The notes below the pieces were generated by a model. The model worked only from the letters and a program-made list of their open reading frames with translations. It had not been told where the DNA came from and made no database searches. From Caenorhabditis remanei (taxonomy: Eukaryota; Nematoda; Chromadorea; Rhabditida; Rhabditidae): 64,000 bases of DNA. Shown here in pieces: positions 181-64,000 of the stretch (its first letter is position 1; every line of letters begins with the position of its first letter). Position numbers and translations under genes: made by a program. The stretch is from contig NC_071331.1 of the NCBI RefSeq assembly GCF_010183535.1, positions 23,250,001 to 23,314,000 of the forward strand, read 5' to 3'.

Positions 181-2318
181 CTGGAGTCGTCTGCTGTACG
201 ACGTACTACTATTCAACCGGCGAAACTGAAAACTTATTAGTGTTATGGACAACTGGGACCTTTCATATCAAGTTCAAACAAAATTCCGAAACTGTGAAAA
301 AGAAAACAATTCAAAACGTTTTCTAAACGTAACTAACACCAAAAAAGCGAAATTTCAATTATTTGCTTAATAAAATTTCAAAATAGAGATTTCTAGCAGC
401 ATATAGCAAAAACAGTCGCCAAAAAACGGTTATTAATAAAAAAACACTATTTACCGTTTCACAGATTTCATGAAACGGTAAATTTTTAAATTTTTCTATT
501 GTTACGTTTTTATTGACATTCAGAAGAATTTCTAAAATTAGTTGCTAGAAGGCTGAACATAATTACCCAGAATTTTTGAAACGTTGAAAATGTGATTTGA
601 GGTATTATATTGATCATTTTAAATATATTTTTCCCCGTCAAACAGGCACACAGACATCTCATCAGACGCCGCCGCAGAAGTTCAGAAAAAATAATATTTG
701 CACGTATTCCCTAATTTCCACGTGTCACTAAAAATGATGCAAGATTATATGAGTACATGTATCAAAAACCACCTGTGTCTAATAGAAAATGGGGAAAAGG
801 AAACAGAGTATACATGACTTTCTGCAAAAGAAATTTATGGTCAGGGATGCAAATAAGTAACTGAACATGTTTAAGCTGCAGATATCTGCTACAATGACAA
901 AAATTATTACTGTTTCAGAAAAAACTTTAAAATTAAATTATTACATCAACATTAGCATTTAAAATCCAGATAGAACATTAAAAATCATCTATAATTTCAT
1001 TTGAAGGAAAATTTTTTTTTAAAGAGTATCGAATTTCTGAGTCCCTAAGAATTTATTTGCTGCTTCAAAAATTCCGGATATTACTCAATGTTAGTAATTT
1101 GATAGTGACTCGCAGATCTAAGAAAGTTATTTATTTCAATGAATGTTTCAGAGAATTGTAAACCAGAAATGCATTTTTAATTATGACATTATACCAATGT
1201 TTGGTTAGCAAAACTCACTCTTTCTAATTATGGTAAAGTTTAACTGTTTTTTGTATAGCACAATGTGAATTGCGTCATAACTTTTATAGGACAGTGTATA
1301 TTTTATTTTTGAAAGCAAAAAAAAACTGTTTCTGAAAATATTTATAGAAATCATTACTAGAAGCAGTTGCTTAACACAGTTTCGATTTCAACCCGATTTC
1401 ATTAAAACAAAAAGGCGAAGCTTAAAACTTTTCTGGGTTATTAGTGTTATTGACAACTGAAATTTGTTTAGGACAAAAATTTAACACTATCTAACTTTCA
1501 TATTTCTTACTTTTTCACATTTCCCTGAAACAGTAAAAATTTTTGGAGGGTTTTTTTTATTTTTCAGTAAACGATAACTGTAACTGAATTCTTGAAAATT
1601 TCCATTTTTTGGGAAAAATAGTTTGGAGACGTCTACTGTACAAAATAGACAATTTTATTTTACAAAAAAAATGTTACCCGAAATAAATATTCAAAAAACT
1701 CTGAAACTGAAACAAATTTTCAAGTGTCTCAATAAAAGTACAAGCGGCGTTTCCGAACTATTTTTCCCAAAAATTTTCAACTTGGAAGAATTCAAAAATT
1801 GTCTAAACCTCGCAAAATCTTAACTGTTTCAAGAAAATGTAGAATTTTTAACGTTAGTTGGTGATTTCATGGAAAAAAATTGCTAATTTTTTGTCATAAA
1901 CAAATTTCAGCGATCAGCGGTCATTATGAATTGGACACAAAACAACTCTTGTCAGGCAATTAAATATTTTTCTACGAAACCTTTCTCGATTTCTTTCCAG
2001 ATTGTTACTTTTTGCTAATCGTCCTCAAACGTTTTACGAGTGGGAAGAAAAGTCGATAAGACTCTTCACTGATAACAAAAAAGTGTTTCTCAAAGACTTA
2101 TTTCATTCATTCATATTCTATTCTATCACCCCCTCCCTTCCAAAATAATATTCATAATGGGGATATGTATATAATTTAGAAAACATACGTTTTGTTAGAA
2201 ATGAATATTGCTAAAGTTAGAATCAATTCCTAGAAGAATCAAATCCTAGACCAAAATTTCAGATTAAATGATACTGATACTTTCTCTTAATAAAATAAAG
2301 ATAATTCAGCTTTTCCAG
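181..2318. promoter_or_regulatory. Intergenic piRNA block 1a: 21U-RNA core motifs
   Basis: No credible protein gene was found. The stretch carries CTGTTTCA cores starting at 910 and 1824 (+) and the reverse complement at 1526 (-). For the 1526 copy, a T at 1486 on the - strand follows a YRNT context at about 43 nt. The segment 1190-1850 is paralogous to 3750-5190. The core is known in C. elegans as the upstream motif of autonomously transcribed 21U-RNA genes; function here is inferred. Confidence 0.75.
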
Positions 2319-3619
2319 CCGCATGTCTTCCATATCAGAACAACACTGTCTTATACGCGTATTCAACTGACATCGACTTTAAAACATACGAGGACGGTGC
2401 TTTTTTTATGTTCTTTTATGCTGATAAATATGCAACAATGGCAAATGTTCGATTCGATACGAAACAGGAAGAGGAGATAGAGTACCACTCTGACAAAAAG
2501 TATGTTCATTTTTTGTTTTTGCTGCTTTATTAAATCCTTTTGATTCAGAAGTTTAAATGATTTTTTATGGGCTCATCAACCAGATCCATCACTTGGATAT
2601 GGAGATAACACTACTGGTAGTAACTTGTACACGGTTTTGAAGGTTTGTACTATTTCATCTCATCTTTTATTCAGAAAATATTCCAGAAATTTCTCAACAA
2701 TAAGAAAGCGTCAATATGCGGAGCACAAGTGTTCATTGCAGTAAAACGATATCCAGACGAGTCTGATGTATCCGACATCATTTCCCAACTACGATCAAAT
2801 CATGTGATGGTGTTCATTGCTGTTGACAGTATCCCATCGGGCGGTTCCAATTCTGCAACACTGTACGAAATGTCATTTCAAACAAATGGGTACTGTGTGT
2901 TTGCCAGTGGCCGGGATCTTGATTATGTGAGTTCATTTAGTAAAAATAGAATGAAAATGTTCACTGTGAAAGTTTGCTTTGATCTTGTGTTTTGAATGTT
3001 TCTGTGCAAGTAATAATGTCTTTTCGCAATTGCCGATAGTTTCATCTCGATGATTACGTTTCCTCACAAAAGATACAACCAAACATTCTTTTCTTATCTA
3101 AAAATTTTCAGGCTTTTGACAACATGATCGGACAACTTGATAACCCTTACCAGTTTCTTGCTCAAAATTTTGTGGTTTCTGGATCGGGTCGAATTGAAAC
3201 ACCGACATTCAGAACTCCTTTACCGCCCGGTTATGAAGAATCTTGTTCAGTTGTGATAACTGTTCAAAACCATAGTATGCGATAATTTCCATGTTAAAAA
3301 GTCCACTCACAATGTTTGCAGCACTAGACAAGTTATTTGTATCAATGAACTATACATTTGCGAGTACTGATGGATTTTATGATTTCAAATTTCCTGGTTA
3401 CCAATCGTTTCCTCTTTATGGAACTGCACAAGCAGAGAGCTTGATTCTGAATGGCTCGGTCTCTTACAAATGGACAATTGACTATCATTACAATTCTGAT
3501 GCACCACAAATCATTCAATTAAGAATGTACAGTGACTAGTGAGTTTTTCAGAAACTTTTACTATTGCATAAATCTAATATTTCAGTTATCACGATTTCCT
3601 TCCATTGCCAGTTTTCTGA
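2319..3619 (+). CDS. VWA-like secreted-type protein, 5' end not found
   Basis: Six exons splice in one frame: 2319-2499, 2549-2642, 2675-2926 (a second in-frame acceptor gives 2687), 3112-3274, 3322-3538 and 3586-3619, ending in TGA. All have GT/AG borders. The product reads through an alternating hydrophobic region (AQVFIAVKRYPDESD, then VMVFIAVDSIPSGG) typical of a von Willebrand factor A-like Rossmann fold, followed by a beta-rich tail ending LPVF. It resembles nematode proteins of the DUF7154/VWA type that often accompany C-type lectins; that family name is from memory and tentative. The first exon starts in phase and needs an upstream exon with a start codon and signal peptide, which I could not find in the preceding kilobases. 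The gene may be 5'-truncated or have a distant first exon. piRNA cores flank it on both sides, with none inside. Confidence 0.6.
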
Positions 3620-4459
3620 TGATCAGTTCATTGTTCCTTCAACATGGGCTTCCTCCTCGAAAGCCGATTAAAATTTTATGAAATTTTATAACATAAATAG
3701 TTCCTGAATATTTTCAAATTTAATTATTTCAAATTAACCAACTAAAAATTCTTAACAATTCTTACTTTTTCACAATTCCCTGAAACAGTAAACATTTTGA
3801 GAGGTTTTTGCTCCAGTAAACGATAACTGTAACTGAATTCTTAAAAATTTCCATTTTTTGTGAAAAATAGTTTGGAAACGTCTGCTGTACAAAATACCAA
3901 AATATTGCCGAAATGAAGCTCAATTACCAAATGCAGACCATTATCAAACAGAATATAAGTTCTGTTTCAAAAAATACTGAAACTGAAAAAAATTTTCAAG
4001 AGCCCTAGTTGGTTGTGAACACAAGAGGTATCCAAACTATTTTTCCTGAAAATTTGGAATTCGGAAGAATTTAATTATAATTGTTAGCAAAACTCACTCT
4101 TTCTAATTATTGTGAAGTTTTATTGTTTTTTGAATTACACAATGTGAATTGTTTCACATTTTTTATAAAACTAAATTTAAAAAAAAACTGTTTCAAGAAA
4201 TATTTATAGAAATCATTACTAGAAGTGGTTGCTATGAACGTAGTTACGATTTCAACTCGATTTCATTAAAATAAAATGGCAAAACTGAAATTTTCTGGGT
4301 TATTAGTGTTATTGGCAACTGAAATTTGGTTAGGACAACACAATTTAACACTAACTAACTTTCATATTTCTTATTTTTCTTATATTTTCTTGAAAACAGT
4401 TTTTTTTTCAATTTCAAAATTTCAATTTTTTGGGAGCAATAGTTTAGAGACGTCTACTG

Positions 4460-4898: not shown

Positions 4899-5186
4899 GT
4901 CTACTGTACAAAATAGACAATCTTATTTCACAAAAAATTGTTTCAAAAAATACCCGGAGTAAATATTATTTATCCAATATCAAACAAAATAAAAGTTCTG
5001 TTTAAAAAAATTCTGAAACCGAAAAAAATTTTCAAGAGCCTCAATAGAAGTACAGTGGCGTCTCCGAATAATTTTTTCCAAAAATTTGAAACTTGGAAGA
5101 ATTCAATTACAATAATTGTCTAAACCTCGCAAAATGTTAACTGTTTCAAGAAAATGTGAAAAATTAAAATTTTTAACGTTAGTCGG

Positions 5187-5207: not shown

Positions 5208-6003
5208 CAAATTTTTTGTCTTAAACAAATTTCAGCGGTTTCAAAATTAAAAAAAAAATTTTCACAACAAACTTGCTAAGGATTTTAATTCTTTCTGCTT
5301 AAAATAATGTATCGACTCTTCACTGCAAAAAAAATCTGTTTCAAGAAGAACACATAAAAATTCTATGAAGTTTGGTTGCAATTTAGATGTGATTTTGTGT
5401 TTCAAATAATTTATAAAATACATATCAATCTGGGAGATATTAATAACGCTAACAATGACTTTGGCTATTTTCCTTAATGAAATTAATACTGGCATGTTTC
5501 ATGCCAGCTGGAAGTTTTCCGTTTCACAGCGTTTACAAATACAGCAATTTGTTGTGAAATATAATATGTTATGGACAGAAATGTCGAAACGAAGTATTGG
5601 AAAATGTTATTGATAATGCCTCCAAAACTATTAGGATTGCAAAAATTTCAAGCATCTGTGTTTCTGCAAAAGTTGAAACAGAAAAAAGAAGTGAAAACTA
5701 TATTTTAGCGGCGTCAATTATTTTTTATAACATTGCGTCGCTAAAATCAAAAAATGAAATGTTCGTTTGATCAGAACAATATAAGTAATTTTATTGAAAA
5801 ATAAACTATGTTTAAGAAAATTTTGAAACACAAATTGTATTATTTTCTAAAGTTACTATTTCTTGTGTTTTGAATGTTCTCTTCAGTTTAGAAATAGTAT
5901 TGTTTTTCTGTATCAGATTTTTGTCCTATGATTAGCATCATTAGTATCGTACTTAACTTCAAGGATATTTGAAACCGTAGAAAATTCTGATACATCTTGT
6001 ATA

Positions 6004-6348: not shown

Positions 6349-7291
6349 AACACCGTTTTTCAGTAATTTTTTCTAGAAAGAAAAAAGTTTTTTTTTGGAT
6401 AACCGATTTTACTTGTTCACTAAAAACGTTAATAATTGTGTCAATGTTTCAAATAGCTATGAAATAGAGAAAGTTTGATGAAACTGTGATTCGTGAGAAA
6501 ATTGTAAAATATTTCTTGTTTTATAACATCCTGCAAACTAACCAACAAAGTTATTTTTCCAGTTTCATAAATTATTGAAACAGTGAGTTTTTGTGTAATT
6601 ATTCAGTCGTTTAACAAGATCTATTAGTTGAATAAACCAAAAAATAAAAGAAACAAAATTATCAAAACTTAAAACAAAAAATAATCACTATAAAAACTTG
6701 CTGGTTCAGAAAATTTTGAACAATAAATAAGTTCTTAAGATTATTAATAATAAAAGCGAGTGGATTCTAAATTCTGATTAAGATAACCAGTTTCAATTCA
6801 ATTCAGTTTCAATCAACAATAATTATTTTCATGTTTCAGGTACTACGGATTTAAGACGATGCTAGCAAATTAACACTGAGCATATAAACAGTATTATCAA
6901 ATAAAAATAATAAAAATCAGTCAGCCCATCAAAAAAATCTGTTCAAAAATGTATTTTTTTGAAGAGACTTGAAATAGATAACATTTGAGATTAAAACTGT
7001 TTGGAAAATTCTTGGAAAATAGTGACGCGATTTGACAATTTATTGATAGAAAAAATAGCTTTTTGAACTTTTTAAAAAAATTATTATTCATAGCATAATG
7101 TTTATTTCATAACGTTTACTATTTCAACACAACAAAAAATAGAAAACTATTTTTTCATATCGGTTTTTTTCATTCGGTATCGCATGAAAATTTAATGTAT
7201 CTGGTTTAAAGTTACAAAGCGTATTAATTATTCCAAAAAAATGTTCTGTTTCACAATTTTTTTTAAACAATGAAAATTATGAAGTAGCCGA

Positions 7292-8640: not shown

Positions 8641-8760
8641 AAAACAACATGATTTGGAAAAATGATGAAACAAAAATTCACGATTTACCGGTAATTTACC
8701 GAATACTCATTTACCCGTAATTTAACGAAAAATTACCGGTAATTTACCTCACACTGCAGC

Positions 8761-10477
8761 GAACTGAAGATCGGCTTCTTTCCTTTCTGTCGATGTTGTC
8801 CATGATTTGTGGAATTTCTGAAAATTCAGGCGGAGAAGTATATAGAGTATTTCTTCAACTAACCGCATTAAAACCATATTCAGCGATCGATAACCGACAC
8901 GATTTGAAGACGAATGACCGATGGAATTCCTGAAAACAGACACATTATTTGAGAGTATTGAGAGAAGGACGAGACAAATACAATAAAAGCGAAAAGAAAA
9001 TTATGAAAACGTTTCGAAAATGGGGACATTCTGCACTTTTTTGATAAATTTAGAAGAATAATCGGAAGAAAACTGTAAAATTTGCGAGAAAAACGGAATA
9101 TCGAAAGTAGGGACGAGAAACGCTCAACAAAGAGAGACGGAGACATTTTGCTAAGCAACGCTAAAACGAAAACAACCGATTTTTAAGCAATTTTTTGATA
9201 TATTCAGCGAGTATTATTGTTTGAATGATGATAATTGAGTAAACTATTATTCGGAGACAAATTTTTGGCGAAAAATGAAAAAAAAAATGTGCGAGAAACT
9301 GGGAAAATGAAACTTTAACGCTGAAAAAAAAATTAACCTTGACGCTGTATCGGCTACTTCCGTTTTCTTTATGAGAAGATTCGTTGAAAGCATACAATTT
9401 ACACCGTAAAAAATCGAAAAAAACTGAAAAATTTGAAGTTTAATAGCTGAAAAACTGAAAATTGGCTAACGTTCAGTTTAGCGCTGCTTAACAGCGCTAA
9501 ATAAATCGTGTCGATTTACGGTAAACAACACGCGCTTGCGTAATATCGGAGTGTCGTAGTATTTTAGCGCTGTTAAGCAGCGCTAAAGTATGAGGCATTT
9601 CTGACCGTTTCTTTATATTTTTCGTCATTTTTTTCTAAATTCAGCTAAATTGTATTGTTTCTTTTCAAATTGTATCAATTTTCCCAGAAGAAATCGATTT
9701 TCAGAAATAAAACATTTGAAAATTTGGCAAAAAGGTCGAATTCTGTTGATTTTTACAGATTTTTCCGCCGCCACGTTCGAATTTTCTTGAAAACTTCCAA
9801 TTTGACAGTTTTATTTTTATTTTTACGGTTTAAATTGTATGCTTCAAACGAATCTTCTCATAAAGAAAACGGAAGTAGCCGATACAGCGTCAAGGTTAAT
9901 TTTTAGCGCTGCTAAGCAGCGTTAAAGTTTCATTTTCCCAGTTTCTCGCACATTTTTTTTCATTTTTCGCCAAAAATTTGTCTCCGAATAACAGTTTGCT
10001 CAATTATCATCATTCAAACAATAATACTCGCTGAATATATCAAAAAATTGCTTAAAAATCGGCTGTTTTCGTTTTAGCGCTGCTTAGCAAAATGTCTCCG
10101 TCTCTCTTTGTTGAGCGTTTCTCGTCCCTACTTTCGATATTCCGTTTTTCTCGCAAATTTTACAGTTTTCTTCCGATTATTCTTCTAAATTTATCAAAAA
10201 AGTGCAGAATGTCCCCTTTTTCGAAACGTTTTCATAATTTTCTTTTCGCTTTTATTGTATTTGTCTCGTCCTTCTCTCAATACTCTCAAATAATGTGTCT
10301 GTTTTCAGGAATTCCATCGGTCATTCGTCTTCAAATCGTGTCGGTTATCGATCGCTGAATATGGTTTTAATGCGGTTAGTTGAAGAAATACTCTATATAC
10401 TTCTCCGCCTGAATTTTCAGAAATTCCGCAAATCATGGACAACATCGACAGAAAGGAAAGAAGCCGATCTTCAGTTC
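8761..10477. mobile_element. Foldback element with arms of about 640 bp
   Basis: The left arm 8761-9420 is nearly the exact inverse of 9836-10477. The ends are gaactgaagatcggcttc and its complement. The centre (9421-9835) carries a second palindrome built on ttagcgctgcttaacagcg (about 9478-9587). Open frames in both arms are mirror images and are not genes. The element has no exact CTGTTTCA core, unlike its surroundings, so it probably entered the piRNA block later. A transcript crossing it would form a long hairpin. Confidence 0.8.
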
Positions 10478-11712
10478 ATTGATAATTTCAAGAACAGTCT
10501 GGGACATCCTCCCTTTTCTCTCGTTTTATGGTTACTGTTTCCGTATTTTCAGATCTTCCGATATTGTCTCTTCTCGTCTGCATCCTCCAACGATTCAACT
10601 CAACAAAAATTCTATTTTATTATGGAAATACCCACGAAGAAAACTTGCCTATTCACGAACGCAAAATAATGCATTTTTATGGCACAAAAATGCATGAAAT
10701 TGCATTAAATGGTACAAGCAGTGATGTGCGGAAATAAACATTTCGGAAATTTCGGAACTCGGAAATTTGCCGAATTATCTAGTTTTATGTTAAAAAAAAG
10801 ATGAGGAAAAACAACCAATTTCGAAATTTACTGTGCATGTATAGAAATCGTGAAACAGACGAACAAAACATTTTTGACTGACTATCCATCTTCAGAATTA
10901 TTTTATAAATTCAAGGATTCCGTTTCTGAAAAGTTTGAAACAGATTTTTTATTATCAAAATAATCGAATGGTTGTTACAACTCGGTTAGTGTACCTCATG
11001 CTTTTTTCACTTCTGAAATATGTTACTGAATATCTTGAAAAATACTCTCGATATTTTGTTCACATAGAAATTTATGTAATCCATTACTCAAAACTTGAAA
11101 AACTGAAGCAGACGAAAAAATTCCGATTGGAACTGGTATGAATTGAAATTTATTTTTTCTGAAAGTTCATTGAAACAGTAAAAGTATTTTATGTGTGAAA
11201 GTGAAGTAAACACCAAGAAATGAAAGTTATGAAAAAATATTTCATAGAATAGATAGAAAGATCGAAATTGGATATTGAAAGTAAAAAAAAATAATATGAA
11301 AGTAATTTAATTAATTTTTTGAAACAGTAAAAATAGTTTTTGTGATGAAGATAGTAATTGCATATAATAATTAATGTTTTGTTGTTGCTTATTAGTGGAA
11401 AAATTCTTATAAGTTTTAAAAAATCAACATTTTATATTTAGTTGTTCTAAAACAGTAGTTTTCTAGTAATTTCTCAAAAGTTGAGCACAGGTACTGATTG
11501 GTGCACAATAAATCGAAAATATGTCGAATAAGAAAATTCATAAAAAAGATCAAAATCATTATGAAACAATAAAAATTCTTAACAAACTAAATAACAATCT
11601 AAACAGACTATATTTAAGGTCTTTGTGAAACAGTGAAAGAAAAGCATGTGCATTGCTAACATACTTCCAAACTGACTTCGTGACCGTCTTCAATTGAAAA
11701 AATTGATAATTG
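10478..11712 (-). promoter_or_regulatory. piRNA block 2: five - strand core motifs
   Basis: TGAAACAG starts at 10851, 10937, 11171, 11320 and 11626, all giving - strand motifs. There is no + strand copy here. No supported protein gene lies in the stretch. The 11320 copy has a YRNT T at 11280 (43.5 nt). The 11171 copy is listed separately. Confidence 0.75.
11112..11132 (-). ncRNA. Candidate 21U-RNA locus
   Basis: The - strand core is at 11171-11178. CAGT on the - strand (11135 down to 11132) places the T exactly 42.5 nt from the core centre. Confidence 0.6.
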
Positions 11713-18857: not shown

Positions 18858-19673
18858 GATGATTTGAGAATTTTTATGTTTGGAGGTATAAATAATGATT
18901 ATTCTTATGTTTAGACAGACAGGAAATTATATAGTGGTGTATTCATGGGAACTAATTTCCGATTACATGCAAAACAAGAATAATTGGGATTACAATTATT
19001 TTGAAAACAGTGAAAACATGAAAAAAGACATACAATTATTACCGGAAGTTAAAAATTGTGAAGTTTTTATTTATTTTCGAAGCTGTGAAAATTTTCTAAC
19101 AGCTCAAAACTTGACTGTAAAGACTGCAACTTATTCATCAAGTCTAATTTTCTTTAAAACTCATTTTCGCAGTATTTGAAACTGAAATTTTTTGTATTGT
19201 GAATGCAAAGACAATTGGCCTTAAAAACAGATTTTATTTGAAAATTCTTGCGATTTATGCTTTTTTTATTATAATTTCACGTAGTTAATTTCATGACGAA
19301 AAATAATTGACTAATGATTAGGAACTATAAGAATAGATACCAAAAAATAATTTAAGGTGAGTAAGTTATTTTTGAATTTCCAATTATCTTATTTTCAGTT
19401 GAAACTGTAATTTTTATTGTTCCATTAAAAATTTTTGACTGATTTTTCTAAAGAAACTATTGATAACATTGCTAATATTATAAATTCCAAAAAATTAAAG
19501 ATTTTTTGTGTTAATTGTGGAAATATTGCAATTATTGGACTAGTTTTCTCACAACTTCCACAATTATGGTTTCTCTCTGAAACAGCAAATTTTGTGGGTT
19601 AAAACCCTTCTTTAATTTAACTAATTATTTTTTAATTTAAAAAAATTTAATGGCTAATTAAAATTTAATTCAG

Positions 19674-29111: not shown

Positions 29112-29132
29112 GAAAATGATTAGATAGTCTCA
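29112..29132 (-). ncRNA. Candidate 21U-RNA locus, left half of a dyad
   Basis: The - strand core is at 29171-29178. TAGT on the - strand (29135 down to 29132) places the T exactly 42.5 nt away. The partner core at 29155 faces the other way. Confidence 0.6.
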
Positions 29133-29201
29133 CTAAATAACACCACGCATGATACTGTTTCAAAAATTATTGAAACAGGAAAAAATAGTGGTCTTCTTTA
29201 C

Positions 29202-29222
29202 TGGTTTATCGATATCATTCGA
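29202..29222 (+). ncRNA. Candidate 21U-RNA locus, right half of a dyad
   Basis: The core is at 29155-29162. TACT at 29199-29202 gives a T 43.5 nt from the core centre. Confidence 0.55.
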
Positions 29223-29876: not shown

Positions 29877-30084
29877 TTAACTGAAAAACTACTGTTTCAA
29901 ATGAATATTAATTTATGATTTTTTTTGAAACATTATTAAACTTTGTACAAATATCAACAATCTTTTTTGTTTCAACATTTCTCAGCATCAAGCATCACAG
30001 ACACTATCCAATTTATTGTTAGTTGTTCCACCATTTAACTGTTTCAAACACTTTTGAAATAGAATAAAAAACATTTTGTGCTAC

Positions 30085-31956: not shown

Positions 31957-31977
31957 GTTGTTTACTCGATCAAAACA
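31957..31977 (-). ncRNA. Candidate 21U-RNA locus, left half of a dyad
   Basis: The - strand core is at 32016-32023. TGCT on the - strand (31980 down to 31977) places the T exactly 42.5 nt away. The partner core is at 32000. Confidence 0.6.
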
Positions 31978-32044
31978 GCAATAAAATTTACACTACTCAC
32001 TGTTTCAGAAACTTTTGAAACAGGGGAAAAGTGTTGACTTTTAC

Positions 32045-32065
32045 TGTCTCATCGATTTCTATTTG
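32045..32065 (+). ncRNA. Candidate 21U-RNA locus, right half of a dyad
   Basis: The core is at 32000-32007. TACT at 32042-32045 gives a T 41.5 nt from the core centre. Confidence 0.6.
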
Positions 32066-32253: not shown

Positions 32254-33411
32254 TACACTACAATAAAATGAAACTATTAACAATATTTTTGTTTCAACAT
32301 TTCTCAGCATCAGTACCGACACTACAAGGAGCATTAAAAGTACTTAGGGAACAAAAAAAGTTTAAATTATAACTCCGAAACAGTAAAAAAAGAATTAGAA
32401 AACTGACTTGTTGGAGCTAGAATTCTGGATTTGCGACAGCATTACATATTGTTCAACAGAACACTATAATCTTTAATTTAAAAAAATTAAAACAGCAAGT
32501 TTTGGGAATGAATTCTCTAGAAACAAACTTGACTTTAATAAAAATAACAAGAAATAAAAATCTGAGTAATTCTATTCCAAAAATTTTGAAGCATACAGAG
32601 CCTATTGCCCAACGATCAATTCTACTATTGCATGAAACATTTAGAATGTGAGTTTGAAACAGTAAAAAAATATTTAAATGTTTCATTTGCTATAAAAGTG
32701 TACCTAAATAATAAGGGTTTATAGAAATTAATCTTATAGTGAATGCAAATTAGCTCGCATAGACAACATCGCAATGAGAAAACTCCATTGTTTCAGCATT
32801 TCTAAAAATCAGAATTTGTTACATGTTCATTTATTGACATCTGTATGTATATTGACACCTGTAAAATCCTTTGATTTTGAGTCATTTGAGATTATAAAGA
32901 TGATAGAGGGAATGTTACTAAGGACATCTGGACAAACAGACATACACATTGTCAAGATTTTTTCTGTTTCAAATTTGTTCTGACTTCTGCTGCCGTACGG
33001 TTTCTTCACTTCTGTCACTTCATATTAAGGATATAAATCTGGAAAACCATATAACACCAAGAATCAGAAAAAATGAATTTTATTTGGGAGATCAGTGGAA
33101 CAGTATTTATTTTTCATTTTCTGTTATTCTGCTCTAATCGAGTATTGTTTCGTTACTTGGAGATTTGTTAATCAATGTTTTTATGCTCATAATTATTTTC
33201 AGCCCCTGAAACTATTTTTGAAATAGCTAGAAAATACTGGAGAAAATACTTTATTCTGTTTCAAAGTTTTTCAAAACAGAAAATATGACACTACCGATTG
33301 TTCAGCAAAATATTAGCAGTTCAATATAGTTTACATTATCACAAAAGAAATATTCTAGCCAATTGAAAATAAATGGATTATTATTGTTTTAGAACAGTTT
33401 GAAACATAATT

Positions 33412-33432
33412 TTTTCACAAGATGAACGACCA
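33412..33432 (-). ncRNA. Candidate 21U-RNA locus (duplicated)
   Basis: The - strand core is at 33470-33477. CAAT on the - strand (33435 down to 33432) gives a T 41.5 nt away. The same arrangement occurs at 42859-42879. Confidence 0.55.
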
Positions 33433-33893
33433 TTGCTACCGAAAATATAAAATACTGACATGGTAACTTTGAAACAGTGAAATAATATTGGAATATTCAT
33501 TTTGCTATTAAAAATAGTCCAAATCCGTAATATCTTTGAGTTCCTGGGAGTTTTAAATATATTTTTATTTAGAAATTAAAAAAATAAGCGACATTTTTTT
33601 ATTTTTAAAGAAAATTGAAAAAGAGACAACAATAAACAGCTAGATTAAAGTAACCAAATAAAACCGACAGGATATAGAATTATTGCCGGACCAAGTAAGT
33701 TGTAGTTGGAAACATTTTAATTTCCAACAGTTTTTTAACCGATTCGATTTCCTTATCAGTTCAAAACATCAAATATATATTTTTATGAGAGTGCATGACA
33801 ACTCAACATCATTATCATTTAATTACCATAATTATTATGATCAGAAGCAAATACCAAAAACGCGAATCATTCATTCATCATTCCGTTACACGA

Positions 33894-34551
33894 ATGAAGT
33901 ATACTGTTCTTTTTCTAATATCCATTTCTCTCCTTAGCAATGTCAACTGCATCTGCGAGACAAACTGCTCATGTCCAGATCTTCGTGCTTTTGCTTGGAG
34001 TAGGTCTATATTATAACGAAGATTGACTGAAACAGAGTTTTTGAACGTCTCTGTTTTTAATTTCAGATGAGGACAACATAATGACTTACGAAGAAGGCAT
34101 CGGGTGTACTCGGAAAATAATGTGTTATAAACAGTATTACGACGATGGTATACGTTTAGTTTTTAATGCAACGGAAATTCCATTTCCATCTGATAAAGAT
34201 CCCAATAACGATTGGCTGGTGAGTTAAGCGGATGTTTCCATTTCAATCAAATAAATATACAGCAAGCGCCCACGCAGGACGAGATGTGGGGAATGGATGT
34301 GGCGCTTATAGATTTCTTTTCTTATTTTGGATTTGTATGTGAAAATGGAGTCTGGTATATCACAAAATATCCGCATGGAATAGTTTATGCAAATGCGGGT
34401 AGCGGATTCACTGGTCCGACGGATGAGTTTAATGGAAAAAGGTCAAAAGTGAAGAGTTTCTATTGGTATGCTGACTTTAAAAAAAAAACCGAATTATATA
34501 TTTTTCAGTCATGATTGGCGTGAGTATGTTGAATCAACTCCGATGCCTTAA
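33894..34551 (+). CDS. Small secreted cysteine-rich protein, DUF281-like (copy A)
   Basis: Four exons (33894-33999, 34067-34218, 34263-34465, 34509-34551) give 167 residues. The start MKYTVLFLISISLLSNVNC is a clear signal peptide; longer upstream in-frame ATGs at 33795 and 33837 would bury it, so the ATG at 33894 was chosen. The mature part has paired cysteines (ICETNCSCPDL, GCTRKIMCYKQYY, GFVCENGVWYI, SFYCHDW) and ends STPMP. The layout recalls nematode-specific DUF281 domains, but I hold that name loosely. AATAAA follows at 34573. Intron 1 carries a piRNA core (34028). A near-identical copy sits at 43347-44010. Confidence 0.8.
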
Positions 34552-34890: not shown

Positions 34891-35590
34891 ATAACAAATT
34901 TATGTTATTTGTACTTTTATTGCAAGCTTGAAACAGTAACTCAAAATATAGACTTGTGTCTTCAGTTGTGAAAAAGATTTGCCAAGAAACACTAACAATT
35001 TAATTTGATGTTATCTATTGAAAATTTTTGAAACAGAAAATGAAATACACGAAATAAAAACGTTTGGTTTCAGTACCTTTAGTAATCTTTCAGAATCCGA
35101 GAAACAGTAAAACTTCTCTCTTTTTCAAAACAAAATACAAATGCCACATACTGAAAACCAAATTTTTTAGATCCTGTTTCCAAAGTTTCTGAAACAGTAA
35201 AAAAAGAAATGCAAGGCAATCGCAAAGTTCAAATCATTACAAAAACTATAAGCATTCCGTTTTCTGTGATCAGCACATAAAACTTGCATATCAGCGAACT
35301 TTTAAGAAGTACCGACAAAAGATCACGAGAACAGTTCATGACTCGAAAAACCAGTTCGAACTGATGATCCTTCTTGCAATATAATTTCGCTCTAACTGTT
35401 GTACTTCTTGAAAGTTCACTGATAAGAAATTGTGATTTTTGTTCACATAAAATTTAGTGAAATGTCAGGTATTGTGAGTTCTGTAAGAACATTAATTTTT
35501 AATGGTTGTCAGGCTACATAACCTGTCACTTACTGCTTATAAATAGCACAGTGCCTTTGCATTGTGCAACACAATTTCAAGTTCAGTCGA

Positions 35591-37241: not shown

Positions 37242-39741
37242 GTTATTTCCTCTATAAATAAACGTATTCAAAACTGTAACTTTTCTGTTTTGAAACAATT
37301 TTTGTTTATAATTATGGTAATTATAATAATTAAATGATAATGATGCTGAGTTGTCATTAGCACAGGATAACTGATATTCGGAGAATTAATGTTCTTACTG
37401 GAATCACATTTCTTTTAACAATCAGACTGCATTCATGACATCACACTGTGTTATGTAGCCTGGCAACAATCAAAATTTGATGTTCTTACAGAACTCACGT
37501 TTCTTGCAGAAATCAAACTGGCATCTCACTAAATTGTATGTGCTTTTGAACAAAACTCACAATTTCTTATCAATGAATGATAAGTACATCAAAAATATTT
37601 TGCAGAAAGGGTTACTGATTTTCCCAGTCATAAAGTGTTCTCCCAATCTTTTTTCGGTATTTCCTAAAAGTTCAATGATAAGCAATGTGATGATCAGAAG
37701 AAACAAAAAGTTTATAGTTTTTGTAATGATTTGAACTTTGTGATTGTTCTGTATTCTATTTTTTCTAGTTTTGTCTGTTTCAGAAACTTTGGAAACAGGA
37801 TTTTAAAAATTTGGTTTTTAGTACATGGCATTTGTATATTGTTCAAATACTCTAATTTATAAGCAATAAATTAATTTCATTTTCTGTTTCTGTAATTCTG
37901 AAATAATTAAAAAAAATGACGCCACGCATTTTTATTTTGCATATTTAATTTTCTGTTTCAAAAATTGCCCTTGTATAAAATTAAATTAAATCATTAGTGT
38001 ATCTTCGAAGATAATGTTGCAAAAAAACACACGCCTGAACATGTCTTCCCTGATAAAATCTCTTCTCGATGTTTCAAATGAAATATTTCCCAATTTAATC
38101 TATCAAAATATTTCACCCTCAATTCTCATAACTATCAATCCGTGTCCTTTGAAAATCTGAATTGAAAATCTCATTAAACTTCATTTTAATGTAACGTGTC
38201 AGTGATTTGCTCCTTCGTTTCAATAAATAAATTGTAAATTAATGGTTAAAACTATCAGTGTTACATGCAATTTTTGTGAAACGGCATTTTTTCTGTGATT
38301 TTAAAAAAGACTGTTACAAAATTTCCAAATTACATTCTGATTTTCGAATGATAAATCAGTTCATCGTCTACTTCCATTTTATTTTTATAATTAAGGGAAC
38401 AGTAAGTTTTCAAAGTTTTGAATGAGTTGAGATAATTAAATTCTACTTCAAAACAACAATTGATTATGATAAAAACGCTGAATTTTATAATTACTGTTTG
38501 AAACAGTGAGATTATGTCTGAAGCGATATAATCGAAGACAATTATCGTCATTTGACAAATTTTAAAACAATTTCTATTTGAAACAGTGAAAAAAGCTTTT
38601 TTTTTAACGTTTTCACGCCGGAAAAGTTTAGATTTTTTTAACTTTCGATTTTTCATACTAATTTCAGTTCTCATTTCCAATTATCCAAGTAGTGCCGAGA
38701 TTCCATTGACTTCCTGGCAAGCCGTCGACTGAAAGTCTGAAATTTCAACTTTTGCTTCTGAAAGAACACGTCGAAGGCGGCGCAGACCGGCTGGCCTATA
38801 ATAAAATGCGTATATCAGTCACACTTTTATAAAACAGTAGTTCTTGGAAATTATTTTACAGTTTCAAAACAAAATGATGTCTATTTTTCACTATTTCAGC
38901 GAAAAACCTTGTTAAATTTAACTCACCGTGTTTCCAGTCATGATTCATAGTGTTTCATCAAGAGAACAATGAAAAGTTAGAGATCGGGCAGAAGTGTGAT
39001 GAGAATGAAGAGACATAGAGAAATAAATAGTCATTACAAATTTGTTTCATCTCTTAAAAAACAAATTTTGAAACATAAACTTCATTTTTTCCAATATTTT
39101 ACCGTTTTAAAACGTCAGAAATCTACGTTCTACTACTAATTAGCACCACGCTCGGTAATGTTTCAAAAATCATTAAAACAGAAAAAAGTGATCTTCATTA
39201 TTGTACAACCGGCATAATTCAAATTCAATAAAAACGGGAATAACGATAAACTACTGTTTCAAATGAATAGAATATTATGAGTCATTTTGAAACAGTATTA
39301 ATCGTGAAAATTTTTTATAACATTTCAAATTTTTTTAAATGTAAAATTTTTATGATCTACACATGTACATAGACAAACACTCACAGAATTCAGAATCCAA
39401 TCAATTTTTCATTACTTCACTTGTTACAGTTTCTTTTGAAACAGACAAAAAATTCAAAATTAAGTGGGATAACTCGTTAATTAAATATTGAAGGTGTGCA
39501 GAAACTGGAGAGTTTTGGAGAGTTTTATGAAAAAAGGCCAATATTATAGCAGGATTGTGTCATAATGTCAAAACATGTTTTTATCTCGAAAAATAGCGGA
39601 AGTTTCAGTTCAATAGGTGTTCCCTCACCAAAAATCATCGAGATAGTATATAATAATTGGTTTCATTTAAAAATCATCAACTCTAGATTTCTTTGGTTTC
39701 TATAATTTCTACACCCTTCTAATATACAAATTTCCAGAATC
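37242..39741. promoter_or_regulatory. Intergenic piRNA block 6a
   Basis: CTGTTTCA starts at 37775, 37953 and 39254 (+). TGAAACAG starts at 38499, 38579, 39288 and 39437 (-). Positions 37775-37798 form a near-dyad with one mismatch in the right half. For 39437 the best YRNT T is at 39400 (40.5 nt). Positions 38270-38690 are paralogous to 47740-48050. Confidence 0.75.
38671..38960 (-). other. Possible two-exon short ORF of unknown family
   Basis: On the - strand an ATG near 38950 opens MNHDWKHG before GTGAGT. After an acceptor near 38805 the frame continues QPVCAAFDVFFQKQKLKFQT to a TGA at 38671-38673, about 50 residues in all. There is no signal peptide and no family match. The corresponding place in the other block copy (about 28556-28815) does not keep this frame, which argues against it. 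Confidence 0.2.
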
Positions 39742-39852: not shown

Positions 39853-40399
39853 AGACACGTCGACGCTATAAGACTTATTGTTTGCAGTTCCACATTTCAC
39901 TTTTTCAAACAATTTTGAAGTAAAAACAATCATGTGGTACTGTTTAACTTTCACCATAATTTTTTAAAAACTGTTTCAAAAATTTTTGAAACTGAATAAA
40001 AATCTTGGCTTCTTGTTTGAATTGACTGTGTGTATTTTGAATGATTTCATCTTAAGTATGTAATAACATTTTTTCAAAAACACAAATTTTAAGAAAATTT
40101 TTATTTAAATTATATTTACTGTTTCTGGGGTTCTATAGAAACTTCTGAGATTTTGAAAGATTACTAAGAAAATTTTTCCCGAAGTAGGCAAAAATAACAT
40201 TATCATGTTGGAAAATTATTCTATAACTTGAGGTAAAAGTATTCCCTAAATAAACCAATTTTAAAAATTGAAATTACGACCATGATAATTAATTAAAACA
40301 TAAAACAGTATTGTTTCAGAGATACATTTTAAACAAATAAATTTGAGTCAATACTGAAAAACAAGAAGAACCAAAACAAAAAAGGGAATGACACGGGAT

Positions 40400-40920: not shown

Positions 40921-41190
40921 TTAAAAAAAAGTGCTTTTCAATTTCACAAACTTTTTCAGAAACTTTTGAAACAGGGATAAAGTGTTGACTTTTACTGTTT
41001 CATCGATTTCTATTATAAATCTTAGAACTCAATAGAATCCCAGGTTTAACCCCCCAGAGACCGCTCGTACAAAAAAGGAATCAACTATGAATTAGGCTAA
41101 TTTGCCTATGAACAGAAAGACCCCATCAAACTTTCAATAATTACTGTTTCAAGTTCACTAACTACTGAAACAGGAAGTTAGTATTCATAA

Positions 41191-41367: not shown

Positions 41368-41388
41368 GTAGTGTAATCAATATAAACA
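41368..41388 (-). ncRNA. Candidate 21U-RNA locus, left half of a dyad
   Basis: The - strand core is at 41426-41433. CGCT on the - strand (41391 down to 41388) gives a T 41.5 nt away. Confidence 0.55.
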
Positions 41389-41454
41389 GCGATATAATTT
41401 ACACTAGTACTGTTTCAGAAACTTTTGAAACAGAGATAAAATGTTGACTTTTAC

Positions 41455-41475
41455 TGTTTCATCGATTTCTATTAT
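41455..41475 (+). ncRNA. Candidate 21U-RNA locus, right half of a dyad
   Basis: The core is at 41410-41417. TACT at 41452-41455 gives a T 41.5 nt away. The predicted RNA overlaps the next core at 41454. Confidence 0.5.
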
Positions 41476-41664: not shown

Positions 41665-42253
41665 TACACTACAATAAAATGAAACTATTAACAATATTTT
41701 TGTTTCAACATTTCTCAGCATCAGTACCGACACTACAAGGAGCATTAAAGGTACTTAGGGAACATAAAAAGTTTAAATGATAACTCCGAAACAGTAAAAA
41801 AAAGTATTAGAAAGCTGAATTGTTGGAGCTAGACTTCTGGATTTGCAATATGAGACAACACTACGTATTGTTTAACAGAACACTATAATCTTTAATTTAA
41901 AAAAATTAAAACAGCAAGTTTTGGGAATGAATTCTCTAGAAACAAACTTGACTTTAATAAAAATAACAAGAAATAAAAATCTGAGTAATTCTATTCCAAA
42001 AATTTTGAAGCATACAGAGCCTATTGCCCAACGATCAATTCTACTATTGCATGAAACATTTAGAATGTAAGTTTGAAACAGTAAAAAAATATTTAAATGT
42101 TTCATTTGCTATAAAAGTGTACCTAAATAATAAGGGTTTATAGAAATTAATCTTATAGTGAATGCAAATTAGCTCGCATAGACAACATCGCAATTAGAAA
42201 ACTCCACTGTTTCAGCATTTCTAAAAATCAGAATTTGTTACATGTTCATTTAT

Positions 42254-42274
42254 TGACATCTGTATGTATATTGG
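42254..42274 (+). ncRNA. Candidate 21U-RNA locus specific to the second block copy
   Basis: The core is at 42207-42214. TATT at 42251-42254 gives a T 43.5 nt away. The first block copy has TTGTTTCA at the matching core (32788). Confidence 0.5.
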
Positions 42275-42858
42275 CACCTGTAAAATCCTCTGATTTTGAG
42301 TCATTTGAGATGATAAAGATGATAGAGGGAATGTTACTAAGGACATCTGGACAAACATACACATTGTCAAGATTTTTTCTGTTTCAAATTTGTTCTGACT
42401 TCTGCTGCCGTACGGTTTCTTCACTTCTGTCACTTCATATTAAGGATATAAATCTGGAAAACCATATAACACCAAGAATCAGAAAAATTAATTATATTTG
42501 GGAGAACTGTGGAACAGTATTTAGTTTTTATTTTCTGTTATCTGCTTTGGTCGAGTATTGTTTCGTTACTGGGAGATTTGTAAACCAATGTTTGTATGCT
42601 CATAATTAATTTTAATCCCTGAAACTATTTTTGAAATAGCTAGAAAATTCTGGAGAAAATATTTTATCCTGTTTCAAAGCTTTTCAAAACAGAAAATATG
42701 ACACTACCGATTGTTCAGCAAAATATTAGCAGTTCAATATATTTTTTCAAAGATTAAGTTTGTTGGCATAATTTTTCAGAGTTTACATTATCACAAAAGA
42801 CATTTTCCTAATCGTACATAAATGCACTATAAGTGTTTCAGGAAAGTTTGAAGCCGTA

Positions 42859-42879
42859 TTTTTTTCACAAGATGAACGA
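42859..42879 (-). ncRNA. Candidate 21U-RNA locus (duplicated)
   Basis: The - strand core is at 42917-42924. CAAT on the - strand (42882 down to 42879) gives a T 41.5 nt away. The counterpart is at 33412-33432. Confidence 0.55.
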
Positions 42880-43346
42880 TTGCTACCGAAAATATAAAAT
42901 ATTCACATGGTAACTTTGAAACAGTGAAATAATATTGGAATATTTATTTTGCTATTAAAAATAGTCCAAATCCGTAATATCTTTGAGTTCCTGGGAGTTT
43001 TAAATATATTTTTATTTAGAAATTAAAAAAATAAGCGACATTTTTTTATTTTTAAAGAAAATTGAAAAAGAGACAACAATAAACAGATAGATTAAAGTAA
43101 CCAAATAAAACCGACAGGATATAGAATTATTGCCGGACCAAGTGTGTTTTATGTTGTAGTTCTTACATTTTAATTTCCAACAGTTTTTTAACCGATTCGT
43201 TTTCCTTATCAGTTCAAAACATCAAATATATATTTTTATGAGAGTGCATGACAACTCAACATCATTATCATTTAATTACCATAATTATTATGATCAGAAG
43301 CAAATGCCAAAAACGCGAATCATTCATTCGTCATTTTGTGAAAAGA

Positions 43347-44010
43347 ATGAAGTATACTGTTCTTTTTCTAATATCCATTTCTCTCTTTACCGGTGTCAAC
43401 TGCATCTGCGAGACAAACTGCTCATGTCCAGATCTTCGTGCTTTTGCTTGGAGTAGGTCTATATTATAATGAAGATTGACTGAAACAGAGTTTTTGAACG
43501 TCTCTGTTTTTAATTTCAGTTGAGGACAACATAATGACTTACGAAGAAGGCATCGGGTGTACTCGGAAAATAATGTGTTACAAACAGTATTACGACGATG
43601 GTATACGTTTAGTTTTTAATGCAACGGAAATTCCAATTCCATCTGATAAAGATCCCAACAACGATTGGATGGTGAGCTAATAAGAGATATTTTCATCTTT
43701 ATCTAATAAATATTTAGGCAGCGCCCACACAAAACGAAATGTGGGGAATGGAGGTGGCGCTAATAGATTTCTTTTCCTATTTTGGATTTGTATGTGAAAA
43801 TGGAGTCTGGTATATAACGAAATACCCGCATGGAATAGTTTATGCAAATGCGGATAGCGGGTTCACTGGTCCGACGGATGAGTATAATGGAAAAAAGTCA
43901 AAAGTCAAAAGTTTCTATTGGTAAGCTAACTTTTTTTTTCAAAAAAACTTAATTATATATTTTTCAGTCATGATTGGCGTGAGTATGTTGAATCAACTCC
44001 GATGCCTTAA
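43347..44010 (+). CDS. Small secreted cysteine-rich protein, DUF281-like (copy B)
   Basis: Exons 43347-43452, 43520-43671, 43718-43920 and 43968-44010 have exactly the sizes of copy A and also give 167 residues. The start is MKYTVLFLISISLFTGVNC. Differences from copy A are few (for example NED to IED after exon 1, and GSGFT to DSGFT). Cysteines and the STPMP end are kept, so both copies appear functional and recently duplicated. Intron 1 again carries the - strand piRNA core (43481). Confidence 0.8.
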
Positions 44011-57573: not shown

Positions 57574-58856
57574 TCAAATCGGAACAGCTGGAGTACAATT
57601 GGCATTGTCTGCAATTTTCCACTCGCCAATTATCTTCACCCACGGTTTCCATTTCTCCACTCCACACACGTTAGTAATACCCTTTTCGATACATTCACGG
57701 TATGTACCAATGATGTAGCACGGGTATTCGAGCTGAATTTAAAAAAAATTTATTTTTAAATAAAAATTTTTAATTACCTGACCGAGTTGTACCCATAGAT
57801 CATGAGCCTCTACCATACACGCAGGAGGCGTGGTCATTTTCTTTTGGCAATCGGCGTACCCATTGAAATAATAGGTGGTGACATCACAGAGCACATTGAG
57901 CATTTTGGAGATTTGAGTGTCAGCGAGACAAGGGAGGTTTGAGAGGCACGTCTGGAAAAGAATGGTGAAAATTAAGGTCAGTTGGGGGAAAACGGAATAA
58001 AAATTTAACTCGGGGACTAGTTTTCCATGAATTTGGTTTTCTAGGCCACCAAATGGAAAACTCGACCGCCACTGTTTTTGATCAAAGTTCTTGTTTTTTT
58101 TTAATTTCAAGTGTTTCTGAGCGTCCGAAAACAATTTCCGCATAAAATTTTGGCTCAGGGACTAGTTTTCCCAAAAATTTGGTTTTCTAGGCCATCGGTG
58201 CAAAAACTAGGCCGCCACGGTTTTTGGTCGACTTGTTGAGTTTTGCGCTCGTTTTTATGTCTATAATTGTTTTCCACTTGGTGTTCTAAAAAACCAAATT
58301 CAAGGAAAACTAGTCCCTGAGTTCAATTTTTGTGAAAATCCGGTTTATAAACATAAAAACGAGCCCACAATTCAACAAATAGACCAAAAACGACGAGTTT
58401 TTGCATCAGTGGCCTAGAATACCAAATTTGGGAAAAACTAGTCCCTGGGCCAAAATTGTATGCCATTAAAATTTGAAAAAACGAAAAAATTCGCATAAAA
58501 AAGGTGGTGGCCGAGTTTTTCCATTTGGTGGCCTAGAAAATCAAATTCAAGGAAAACTAGTCCCCAACTTACCTTAGCACTCTCACATTTCTTCACAATC
58601 TCCTGACCTTCATCTGTGGTGAAATTCTCGAAATTTATAGTTGCTCCTTTAAATGATGTGGTCACTGGCTGAATTTCAATTCCAGATAATTAACTATAAC
58701 TACCTATCAAAATTACCCTACCGTAAGACAATCCCTGGCTTTTGAGGTATCACTAGCATTGCAGGTGTTGAAATAGTAGGTAGGGAGGTAGATTGCGTAG
58801 GAATAGGGGAAAATTGTAATGCAAAGAAAAATTGGGAGAGGATTCCAGTTTGGCAT
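57574..58856 (-). CDS. Secreted DUF19 (T20D4.11-like) cysteine-rich protein
   Basis: Four exons on the - strand (58722-58856, 58573-58668, 57778-57951, 57574-57732) meet in phase 0 and give 187 residues. The ATG at 58856 opens MPNWNPLPIFLCITIFPYSY, a signal peptide; an upstream in-frame ATG at 58901 would lengthen it. Cysteine spacing (TCNASDTSKARDC, KKCESAKTC, NLPCLADTQ, LNVLCDVTTYYFNGYADCQ, PPACMVEAH, YPCYIIGTYRECIEKG, TNVCGVEKW, NANCTPAVP) is that of the nematode DUF19/T20D4.11-like family, secreted proteins of unknown role. All introns carry a ctagtcccc / ggcctagaaa dispersed repeat. A poly(A)-type AATAAA lies just past the stop. An inverted copy of exon 2 sits at 59808-59903. No piRNA core occurs within the gene. 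Confidence 0.85.
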
Positions 58857-62226: not shown

Positions 62227-62247
62227 TGGATTTAGTGATTAAGCTAA
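62227..62247 (+). ncRNA. Candidate 21U-RNA locus of a divergent pair
   Basis: The core is at 62182-62189. CAAT at 62224-62227 gives a T 41.5 nt away. Confidence 0.55.
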
Positions 62248-63928: not shown

Positions 63929-63949
63929 AAATTTTGGATAAAAGCAAAA
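63929..63949 (-). ncRNA. Candidate 21U-RNA locus
   Basis: The - strand core is at 63987-63994. CAAT on the - strand (63952 down to 63949) gives a T 41.5 nt away. Confidence 0.55.
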
Positions 63950-64000
63950 TTGGCAATAGATACTATGCCCAGCTTTCTAAAATTATTGAAACAGTTTTAA

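Follow-up and report, generated by a model that had tools for sequence, protein, structure and literature searches.

A probable cluster of type I 21U-RNA genes in right-arm DNA of Caenorhabditis remanei chromosome IV, with inverted second cores in some predicted promoters

The stretch of DNA analysed here, called the window below, comprises 64,000 nucleotides (nt) from the right arm of chromosome IV (C4) of Caenorhabditis remanei PX506, the reference genome of the species (PMC10461856), at 23.25-23.31 Mb (C4:23250001-23314000). It is very probably part of a cluster of type I (Ruby-motif) 21U-RNA genes, that is, genes for PIWI-interacting RNAs (piRNAs). The window holds 101 exact copies of the Ruby-motif core (CTGTTTCA), most of which are followed at a fixed distance by the YRNT of a predicted start site. 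In addition, an inverted copy of the core (TGAAACAG) recurs at one offset (+16), giving in places an exact 24-bp palindrome with a candidate start site on each side. The words, their spacing, their statistics and their locality are direct observations on the DNA.

Abundance of the core and phase of the predicted start sites

A first-pass annotation of the window had counted 101 cores, 40 on the plus and 61 on the minus strand, and this count is exact. The number expected is 3-4: 50 Markov-1 simulations gave a mean of 3.1 (highest 7), and a dinucleotide formula gives 3.7. Among all 8-mers of the window, CTGTTTCA (with its reverse complement) has the highest over-representation score. The strand bias of 40:61 has a P of 0.046. 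An arrangement in strand-sorted blocks was ruled out, 49 of the 100 adjacent pairs of cores being co-stranded where 51.6 are expected.

The same annotation had held that an equal density of the motif elsewhere would speak against a cluster; the densities found are far from equal. Twenty 10-kb stretches along chromosome IV hold 68 cores per 200 kb (43 with YRNT), and five 5-kb stretches on other chromosomes hold 2 per 25 kb, against 101 per 64 kb in the window. In the chromosome IV sample a reversed control word occurs 8 times, and the densest 10-kb stretch has 10 cores, whereas the window averages ~16 over that length. In the whole assembly searched (130,466,896 bases, 186 contigs), ACTGTTTCA has 8571 matches and the reversed word 2306; an even spread over this 130-Mb genome would put ~4 copies of ACTGTTTCA in 64 kb, and the window holds 62. 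The first 100 matches listed lie on the sequence labelled C1 and span its first 6.0 Mb, which is about the background density of the reversed word. Nearer to the window, its 10-kb flanks have 13 and 29 cores, a 5-kb stretch at C4 23.45 Mb has 6 (5 with YRNT), and three 5-kb stretches at C4 22.3, 22.7 and 23.0 Mb have none. Within the window, there is no Ruby core between 47945 and 54596.

Start sites were scored as a YRNT beginning 34-36 nt past the end of the core, which corresponds to a spacer of 37-39 nt before the T. Such a YRNT follows 80 of the 101 cores, whereas the background is 19.3% (2000 random window positions) or 22.1% (4000 draws). YRNT starts peak at exactly these offsets, with 23, 33 and 24 cores at 34, 35 and 36 nt, while the other offsets from 0 to 75 give 0-17; at control offsets of the same cores, YRNT is found in 21/101 (20-22 nt) and 30/101 (50-52 nt). 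The peak puts the T at 41.5-43.5 nt from the core centre, in agreement with the 41-45 nt measured in the first-pass annotation. This layout is found for 80 cores and not for the other 21. The 80 predicted genes (33 on the plus and 47 on the minus strand) would give 77 distinct 21-mers, uniqueness being assessed within the window.

The sequence around the cores is rich in A/T, and its columns show weak conservation (100 of the 101 window sites, and 66 of the 68 chromosome IV sites, were kept for such comparisons, cores too close to the end of a stretch being left out). When the window, its two flanks and a stretch at 23.10 Mb are taken as one region of 153 sites, an A at -1 is present in 101/153, compared with 17/58 on the rest of chromosome IV (P 2e-6). 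An extended word, TTTTACTGTTTCAAAATT, has 41 genome matches, 38 at C4 23.32-23.97 Mb and 3 at 18.86-19.63 Mb. It is absent from the window itself, and the longer word therefore marks the ground to its right. One-letter variants of the core were also scored for YRNT: CCGTTTCA has it in 7/8, CGGTTTCA in 7/10 and ATGTTTCA in 10/21, while CTTTTTCA (6/21) and TTGTTTCA (6/23) do not stand out. This behaviour fits only partly the C. elegans NNGTTTCA core, as described in the available text of PMC7884074.

The proposed mechanism is as follows. The nematode SNAPc-derived complex (in C. elegans names, SNPC-4, PRDE-1 and TOFU-4/5) would bind each CTGTTTCA core flanked by A/T-rich sequence. RNA polymerase II would start at the YRNT, with 37-39 nt of spacer before the T, and would make a short capped precursor. 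Trimming would leave a 21-nt RNA that has the T as its first nucleotide, and this RNA would be loaded on PRG-1. There are 67 Piwi-domain matches present. The predicted promoters of this region have a local flavour: an A stands more often at -1, and about a fifth of the sites have an inverted core at +16. Two intact halves form a 24-bp palindrome, in most cases flanked on either side by a predicted start site, and such a site would yield two diverging piRNAs. Binding, transcription, loading and two-way firing are steps that we infer.

Inverted cores and predicted palindromic promoters

Because close pairs of cores on opposite strands had been noticed, TGAAACAG was sought at every offset from the core, a match being at least 6 of 8 letters and the controls being columns shuffled among sites. 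In the window, the inverted core is found at +16 in 21/100 sites (shuffles: mean 7.5, highest 17 of 1000). In the region of 153 sites it is found in 28 (shuffles: mean 9.8, highest 18), while the remaining offsets between 8 and 59 give 4 or fewer. When each sequence family is represented by a single site, +16 is found in 9/72 (shuffles: mean 3.2, highest 11, P 0.001), and the remaining offsets give 3 or fewer. The two flanks, which were sampled once the dyad was known, have it in 6/42 cores.

With at most 3 mismatches, a genome search for the fully written AT-rich palindrome gave 38 places, 28 of them at C4 23.108-23.655 Mb and the remaining ten spread over other parts of C4 (7), C1 (2) and C5 (1); a second wording gave 30 strand-matches, 29 of them on C4. 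The reversed control gave 0 in both cases. Eleven exact 24-bp palindromes were collected, a number that is the yield of the sampled stretches and two genome searches and not a census; nine lie at C4 23.21-23.59 Mb, one at C4 0.755 Mb and one at C4 3.10 Mb. The three in the window have YRNT on 6/6 halves. For the eight outside it, the criterion was fixed before their surroundings were inspected, and YRNT is present on 11/16 halves (P 2e-5): on both sides in 4, on one side in 3 and on neither in 1. Overall, YRNT is found on 17/22 halves and on both sides in 7 loci, and the paired predicted 5' ends lie 67-71 bp apart. Across all 50 loci in which one half is exact and the other matches at least 6 of 8 letters, YRNT is found on 48/61 exact halves, 4/8 NNGTTTCA halves, 6/8 other halves that keep GTTTC and 10/23 in which GTTTC is broken.

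Palindromy ends at 24 bp. Clear likeness between flanks is confined to the copies in the window; beyond these there is a single 15-nt match (E 0.012). Two origins for the palindromes were ruled out: a hairpin or terminal inverted repeat, there being no pairing past 24 bp, and a dispersed transposon carrying the palindromic unit, the 171-bp unit around 32000 (the sole window unit searched genome-wide) having 3 genome matches, all in the window.

The most direct reading of the palindromes is that they may be two ordinary Ruby promoters set back to back on one site, and it is somewhat more likely than not that the intact ones fire both ways. Several points weigh against so simple a picture. The +16 half came from offset scanning and is local, and its excess shrinks when one site per family is counted. 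On the rest of chromosome IV it is found in only 3/58 cores, two of which are the halves of the palindrome at 3.10 Mb; the region's 28/153 differs from 3/58 with P 0.016, and from 1/56 with P 0.0012 when these two halves are left out, as they were in the scan outside the region (56 of 58 cores kept). In the stretches at 23.45, 23.70, 23.875 and 24.1 Mb, +16 is found in 1/49 cores, although this set is a poor replicate, 3 of its 4 stretches being arrays mostly without start sites. The stretch at 23.584 Mb has it in 6/27, but it was chosen for its known palindromes and hence is no test. The three palindromes of the window are copies related to one another; one of the eleven exact palindromes lacks YRNT and 3 have it on one side; and imperfect halves have YRNT in 20/39, which is over background yet not clean. 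As for the cluster itself, 21 window cores lack a YRNT in phase, and the arrays described below show that the core alone is no proof of a piRNA gene.

Local copies, core arrays and other features

Comparison of the 160 nt around each core sorts the 101 sites into 73 sequence families, owing to local duplications. Among the clearest copies is a five-core segment (Table 1), in which identity per site is 90.6-99.4% and three predicted 21-mers are the same in both versions. Other copy groups are 1526/1824/3781/5141, 35190/37775 (inverted), and 29155, 32000, 40967/40995 and 41410/41454. Such segment copies mean that piRNA-type genes multiply here by segmental copying. The first-pass annotation had also taken each unit as independent; this does not apply to cores that are inverted pairs in one palindrome or duplicates with identical 21-mers.

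To the right of the window, 5-kb stretches at C4 23.584, 23.70, 23.875 and 24.1 Mb (L068-L071, in that order) have 27, 28, 9 and 6 cores, of which 17, 7, 4 and 1 are followed by YRNT at 34-36. In the last three the rate of 12/43 does not differ from their 19% background (P 0.17) and is far under that of the window (P 1e-8). There, YA precedes 39/43 cores, and YACTGTTTCA is dense and letter-exact, as it is also in part of L068. The cores of L069 lie in degenerate local repeats, a few array cores are spaced 20 nt apart, and other array cores are part of a 102-bp tandem repeat whose matches, 22 in number, are confined to C4 24.045-24.102 Mb. In L069, ACTGTTTCA is found in 25 exact copies and 14 one-letter variants, whereas other frequent listed non-overlapping words have more variants than exact copies; thus, the core word is kept exact even though most copies are unlike ordinary piRNA promoters. 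The arrays may perhaps be raw cores for new piRNA genes, or perhaps the site of another protein, as in a pairing-centre-like array; further readings are a binding platform of the same complex or a recent local spread. The C. elegans meiotic pairing-centre arrays likewise consist of a short motif enriched near one chromosome end, according to the available text of PMC9071541. The comparison is one of location: the present array belongs to the right arm of IV, a position that differs from that of the C. elegans IV pairing centre. Right-hand arrays of exact cores mostly without start sites look new.

Other words were also mapped. TTTACTGTTTCAG has 1 match on C1 among the matches listed (100 places, the last at C4 19.27 Mb); on C4, none of the matches listed falls in the 5.6 Mb from 12.94 to 18.52 Mb, and the word is frequent on both sides. 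TTTACTGTTTCAG/TTACTGTTTCAGC form a small local group at C2 1.140-1.147 Mb, and TTACTGTTTCAGC matches at C4 23.6315-23.6537 Mb recur with a shift of ~13.5 kb, which suggests a large tandem duplication there. The 10-bp periodicity of AAA/TTT is raised in L022 (C4 24.35 Mb; ratio 7.45) and L020 (21.85 Mb; 3.63); it is 1.8-2.2 in L019, L021, L029, L028, L025 and the window, and 1.0-1.5 in other stretches. Where raised, it resembles periodic An/Tn clusters.

Pfam scanning of 20 of the 100 open reading frames (ORFs) in the window, with exon ends set by hand, gave the gene rows of Table 1. No core lies in the 13 exon stretches with Pfam matches (3334 bp), where 5.3 would be expected; one of the 13 (50173-50373) rests on a match below the cut-off. 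A tandem repeat of ~23 bp (AGCTCCGCCCACTATTGACCCTT-like) lies at 51686-52097, beside the calpain-like exons. The stretches 8749-9439 and 9649-10669, ~0.2 kb apart, have the same reading frames on opposite strands and are probably a large inverted repeat (foldback). In the window, no Rfam family reached the gathering threshold and ARAGORN found nothing.

Table 1. Features of the window. All 21U-RNAs and promoters are predictions; predicted genes are given as core start and strand followed by the position of the 5' U; YRNT refers to offsets 34-36.
Feature	Position	Strand	Remarks
Cluster of exact Ruby-motif cores (CTGTTTCA)	910..63994	40 +, 61 -	101 cores, 80 with YRNT
Exact palindromic promoter CTGTTTCA-N8-TGAAACAG	29155..29178	both	two Ruby cores on one site
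Predicted 21U-RNA, rightward half of 29155	29202..29222	+	YRNT offset 36
Predicted 21U-RNA, leftward half of 29155	29112..29132	-	YRNT offset 35
Exact palindromic promoter CTGTTTCA-N8-TGAAACAG	32000..32023	both	
Predicted 21U-RNA, rightward half of 32000	32045..32065	+	
Predicted 21U-RNA, leftward half of 32000	31957..31977	-	
Exact palindromic promoter CTGTTTCA-N8-TGAAACAG	41410..41433	both	24 bp identical to 32000
Predicted 21U-RNA, rightward half of 41410	41455..41475	+	
Predicted 21U-RNA, leftward half of 41410	41368..41388	-	
Near-palindromic third copy related to 32000/41410, one half mutated	40951..40974	core -, CTTTTTCA +	YRNT opposite core only
Near-palindromic promoter	3962..3985	core +, CAGTTTCA -	YRNT both sides
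Near-palindromic promoter	6560..6583	core -, CAGTTTCA +	YRNT both sides
Near-palindromic promoter	30039..30062	core +, CTATTTCA -	YRNT both sides
Near-palindromic promoter	35174..35197	core -, CTGTTTCC +	YRNT both sides
Inverted duplicate of 35174 promoter	37775..37798		YRNT + only
Near-palindromic promoter	39971..39994	core +, CAGTTTCA -	YRNT + only
Near-palindromic promoter	33256..33279	core +, CTGTTTTG -	YRNT both sides
Duplicate of 33256 near-palindromic promoter	42669..42692		YRNT + only
Weaker near-palindromic promoter	3765..3788	core -, CTTTTTCA +	YRNT both sides
Copy related to 3765 promoter	1510..1533		YRNT core side only
Weaker near-palindromic promoter	5658..5681	core -, GTGTTTCT +	YRNT both sides
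Weaker near-palindromic promoter	5141..5164	core +, ATTTTTCA -	YRNT + only
Weaker near-palindromic promoter	10920..10943	core -, CCGTTTCT +	YRNT - only
Weaker near-palindrome	39421..39444	core -, TTGTTACA +	YRNT on neither side
Five-core segment (32655, 32964, 33256, 33470, 34028)	32600..34190, ends approximate		duplicated at ~42020-43640
Second copy of five-core segment (42074, 42379, 42669, 42917, 43481; plus 42207)	42020..43640, ends approximate		
Predicted genes	1526- 1486; 3781- 3741; 3962+ 4009; 4188+ 4233; 5141+ 5187		
Predicted genes	5336+ 5382; 5674- 5636; 6283+ 6328; 6576- 6537; 7246+ 7292		
Predicted genes	7401+ 7447; 7550+ 7595; 8082- 8044; 8148+ 8195; 10936- 10897		
Predicted genes	11171- 11132; 11320- 11280; 11626- 11586; 15058- 15019; 15254+ 15300		
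Predicted genes	15372- 15333; 16307- 16267; 19578- 19539; 19733- 19694; 20810- 20771		
Predicted genes	20846+ 20892; 21989- 21950; 23177- 23139; 26457+ 26503; 28694- 28655		
Predicted genes	28746+ 28793; 29155+ 29202; 29171- 29132; 29892+ 29937; 30039+ 30085		
Predicted genes	30512- 30473; 32000+ 32045; 32016- 31977; 32655- 32615; 32964+ 33010		
Predicted genes	33256+ 33302; 33470- 33432; 34929- 34890; 35029- 34991; 35190- 35150		
Predicted genes	37775+ 37822; 37953+ 37998; 38499- 38459; 38579- 38541; 39254+ 39299		
Predicted genes	39288- 39250; 39971+ 40017; 41144+ 41191; 41410+ 41455; 41426- 41388		
Predicted genes	41454+ 41501; 42074- 42034; 42207+ 42254; 42379+ 42425; 42669+ 42715		
Predicted genes	42917- 42879; 44518+ 44564; 45627- 45587; 45949- 45909; 46668- 46628		
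Predicted genes	47650+ 47696; 54596- 54558; 55363- 55325; 55836- 55798; 56505- 56466		
Predicted genes	56755- 56716; 57201- 57162; 60376+ 60423; 61264- 61224; 61736- 61698		
Predicted genes	62163- 62123; 62182+ 62227; 62439- 62400; 62822- 62782; 63987- 63949		
srj-type chemoreceptor exons	16552-16824, 17321-17560, 18660-18926	-	Pfam over cut-off
TMEM144 (three ORFs)	22610-25146	+	Pfam over cut-off
TRA-1-regulated family protein	34209-34511	+	Pfam over cut-off
Astacin	36352-36729	+	Pfam over cut-off
Calpain-family protease	48179-48505, 49165-49536	+	Pfam over cut-off; below cut-off at 50059-50745, 51289-51549
DUF7154	3276-3536	+	Pfam over cut-off
DUF19	57742-58161	-	Pfam over cut-off

Alternative readings, related systems and meaning

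The inverted half at +16 might instead be a second contact of the same complex, a symmetric or bivalent site that strengthens firing in one direction, with the YRNT on the opposite side being incidental. This is possible, though we consider it the less likely account. It would fit the imperfection of many inverted halves (15 of the 21 in the window match 6-7 of 8 letters), and columns +18 to +20 lean to A even in the 10-kb samples of chromosome IV, so that a weak downstream element may be general. However, intact halves have YRNT at the rate of ordinary cores (17/22 and 80/101, with a background of 19-22%), and even the imperfect window halves are above their control (8/15 vs 14/73).

That the cores are promoters at all could also be questioned, since they might be passengers of a repeat or satellite that contains CTGTTTCA. 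The local duplications that reduce 101 sites to 73 families, the cores that lie in repeats 0.4-0.8 Mb further right and mostly lack start sites, and the core-bearing 102-bp tandem repeat all recall such an origin. We regard it as very unlikely nonetheless, because the YRNT phase is kept in 80/101 window cores and because core, flanks and phase are common to 73 families; the confinement of the 171-bp unit to the window and the end of the palindromes at 24 bp, which excludes hairpin elements, argue in the same direction. The YRNT starts and the two-way arrangement are reminiscent of type II 21U-RNAs, which are capped by-products formed at the promoters of ordinary genes and which resemble the present loci in both respects in the available text of PMC6468775. 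Type II loci differ in being made at gene start sites and in lacking the Ruby motif (PMC6468775, PMC6317315), by definition in the accessible part of the latter; every site counted here has that motif, and a type II origin is extremely improbable. As for the SNAPc promoters of small nuclear RNA genes (the proximal sequence element, PSE), the window sites were counted by the short core.

A type I cluster thus remains the preferred reading, and the following comparisons draw on the cited papers as far as their available text goes. The 21U-RNAs of C. remanei have been profiled earlier and are said to number 2-3 times those of C. elegans (PMC6468775); being already in print, they make this a cluster of a known kind. 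The C. elegans type I clusters lie on chromosome IV at 4.75-7.5 and 13.5-17.5 Mb (PMC3597512, PMC6317315, PMC4015492, PMC9683057) and have in common the CTGTTTCA core, an A/T-rich spacer, YRNT, use of both strands and mainly non-coding surroundings. The type I layout to which the first-pass annotation had assigned the window fits in core, YRNT spacing, A/T flanks, both strands, absence from the exons scanned and chromosome IV. The C. elegans spacer to the T of YRNT is ~35-42 nt (PMC3597512). A C at the 5' end of the core is associated in C. elegans with expression in the male germline (PMC3597512); the searched word begins with C, so by that rule the piRNA genes of the window would be male-biased.

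In C. briggsae, piRNA clusters are found on chromosome I (9.8-12.0 Mb) and chromosome IV (0.02-7.1 and 13.0-15.0 Mb), partly at places unused in C. elegans (PMC9683057). The one at IV 13-15 Mb has strong A/T motifs around the core, a region-specific flavour as here (PMC9683057). The C. briggsae flavour consists of A/T-rich flanks, with no inverted core reported in that text, whereas that of C. remanei consists of an A at -1 and the dyad at +16. For the C. elegans type I clusters, the available text of PMC3597512, PMC6317315, PMC4015492 and PMC9683057 does not mention a second, inverted core at any constant distance. In piRNA literature mostly outside subscription papers (PMC6436959, PMC9683057, PMC3597512, PMC11262695, PMC6468775, PMC6317315, PMC4015492, PMC11822377), no mention of a palindromic type I promoter was found, and 'palindrom' occurs once, in connection with CRISPR. 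A two-way type I promoter is likewise not mentioned in the available text of PMC6436959, PMC9683057, PMC11262695, PMC6468775, PMC6317315, PMC4015492, PMC11822377, PMC7884074 and PMC4050365. The inverted second core at +16 looks new.

Taken together, these results have led to a further idea, which is tentative and, in our estimate, rather unlikely to hold as a whole. The right arm of C. remanei IV may be a birthplace of piRNA genes, in which Ruby cores multiply within local repeats and stay exact even where no start site follows (~23.6-24.1 Mb), beside cores that are gaining start sites and being doubled into palindromes for two piRNAs (~23.1-23.6 Mb). By what means nematodes maintain and replenish their piRNA genes, which number over ten thousand and have one promoter each, is a standing question, and the palindromes, the segmental copies and the arrays poor in start sites offer concrete places at which it can be addressed with small-RNA data. 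A palindromic site shared by two predicted piRNAs would also make it simple to test if direction is determined by the piRNA transcription complex.

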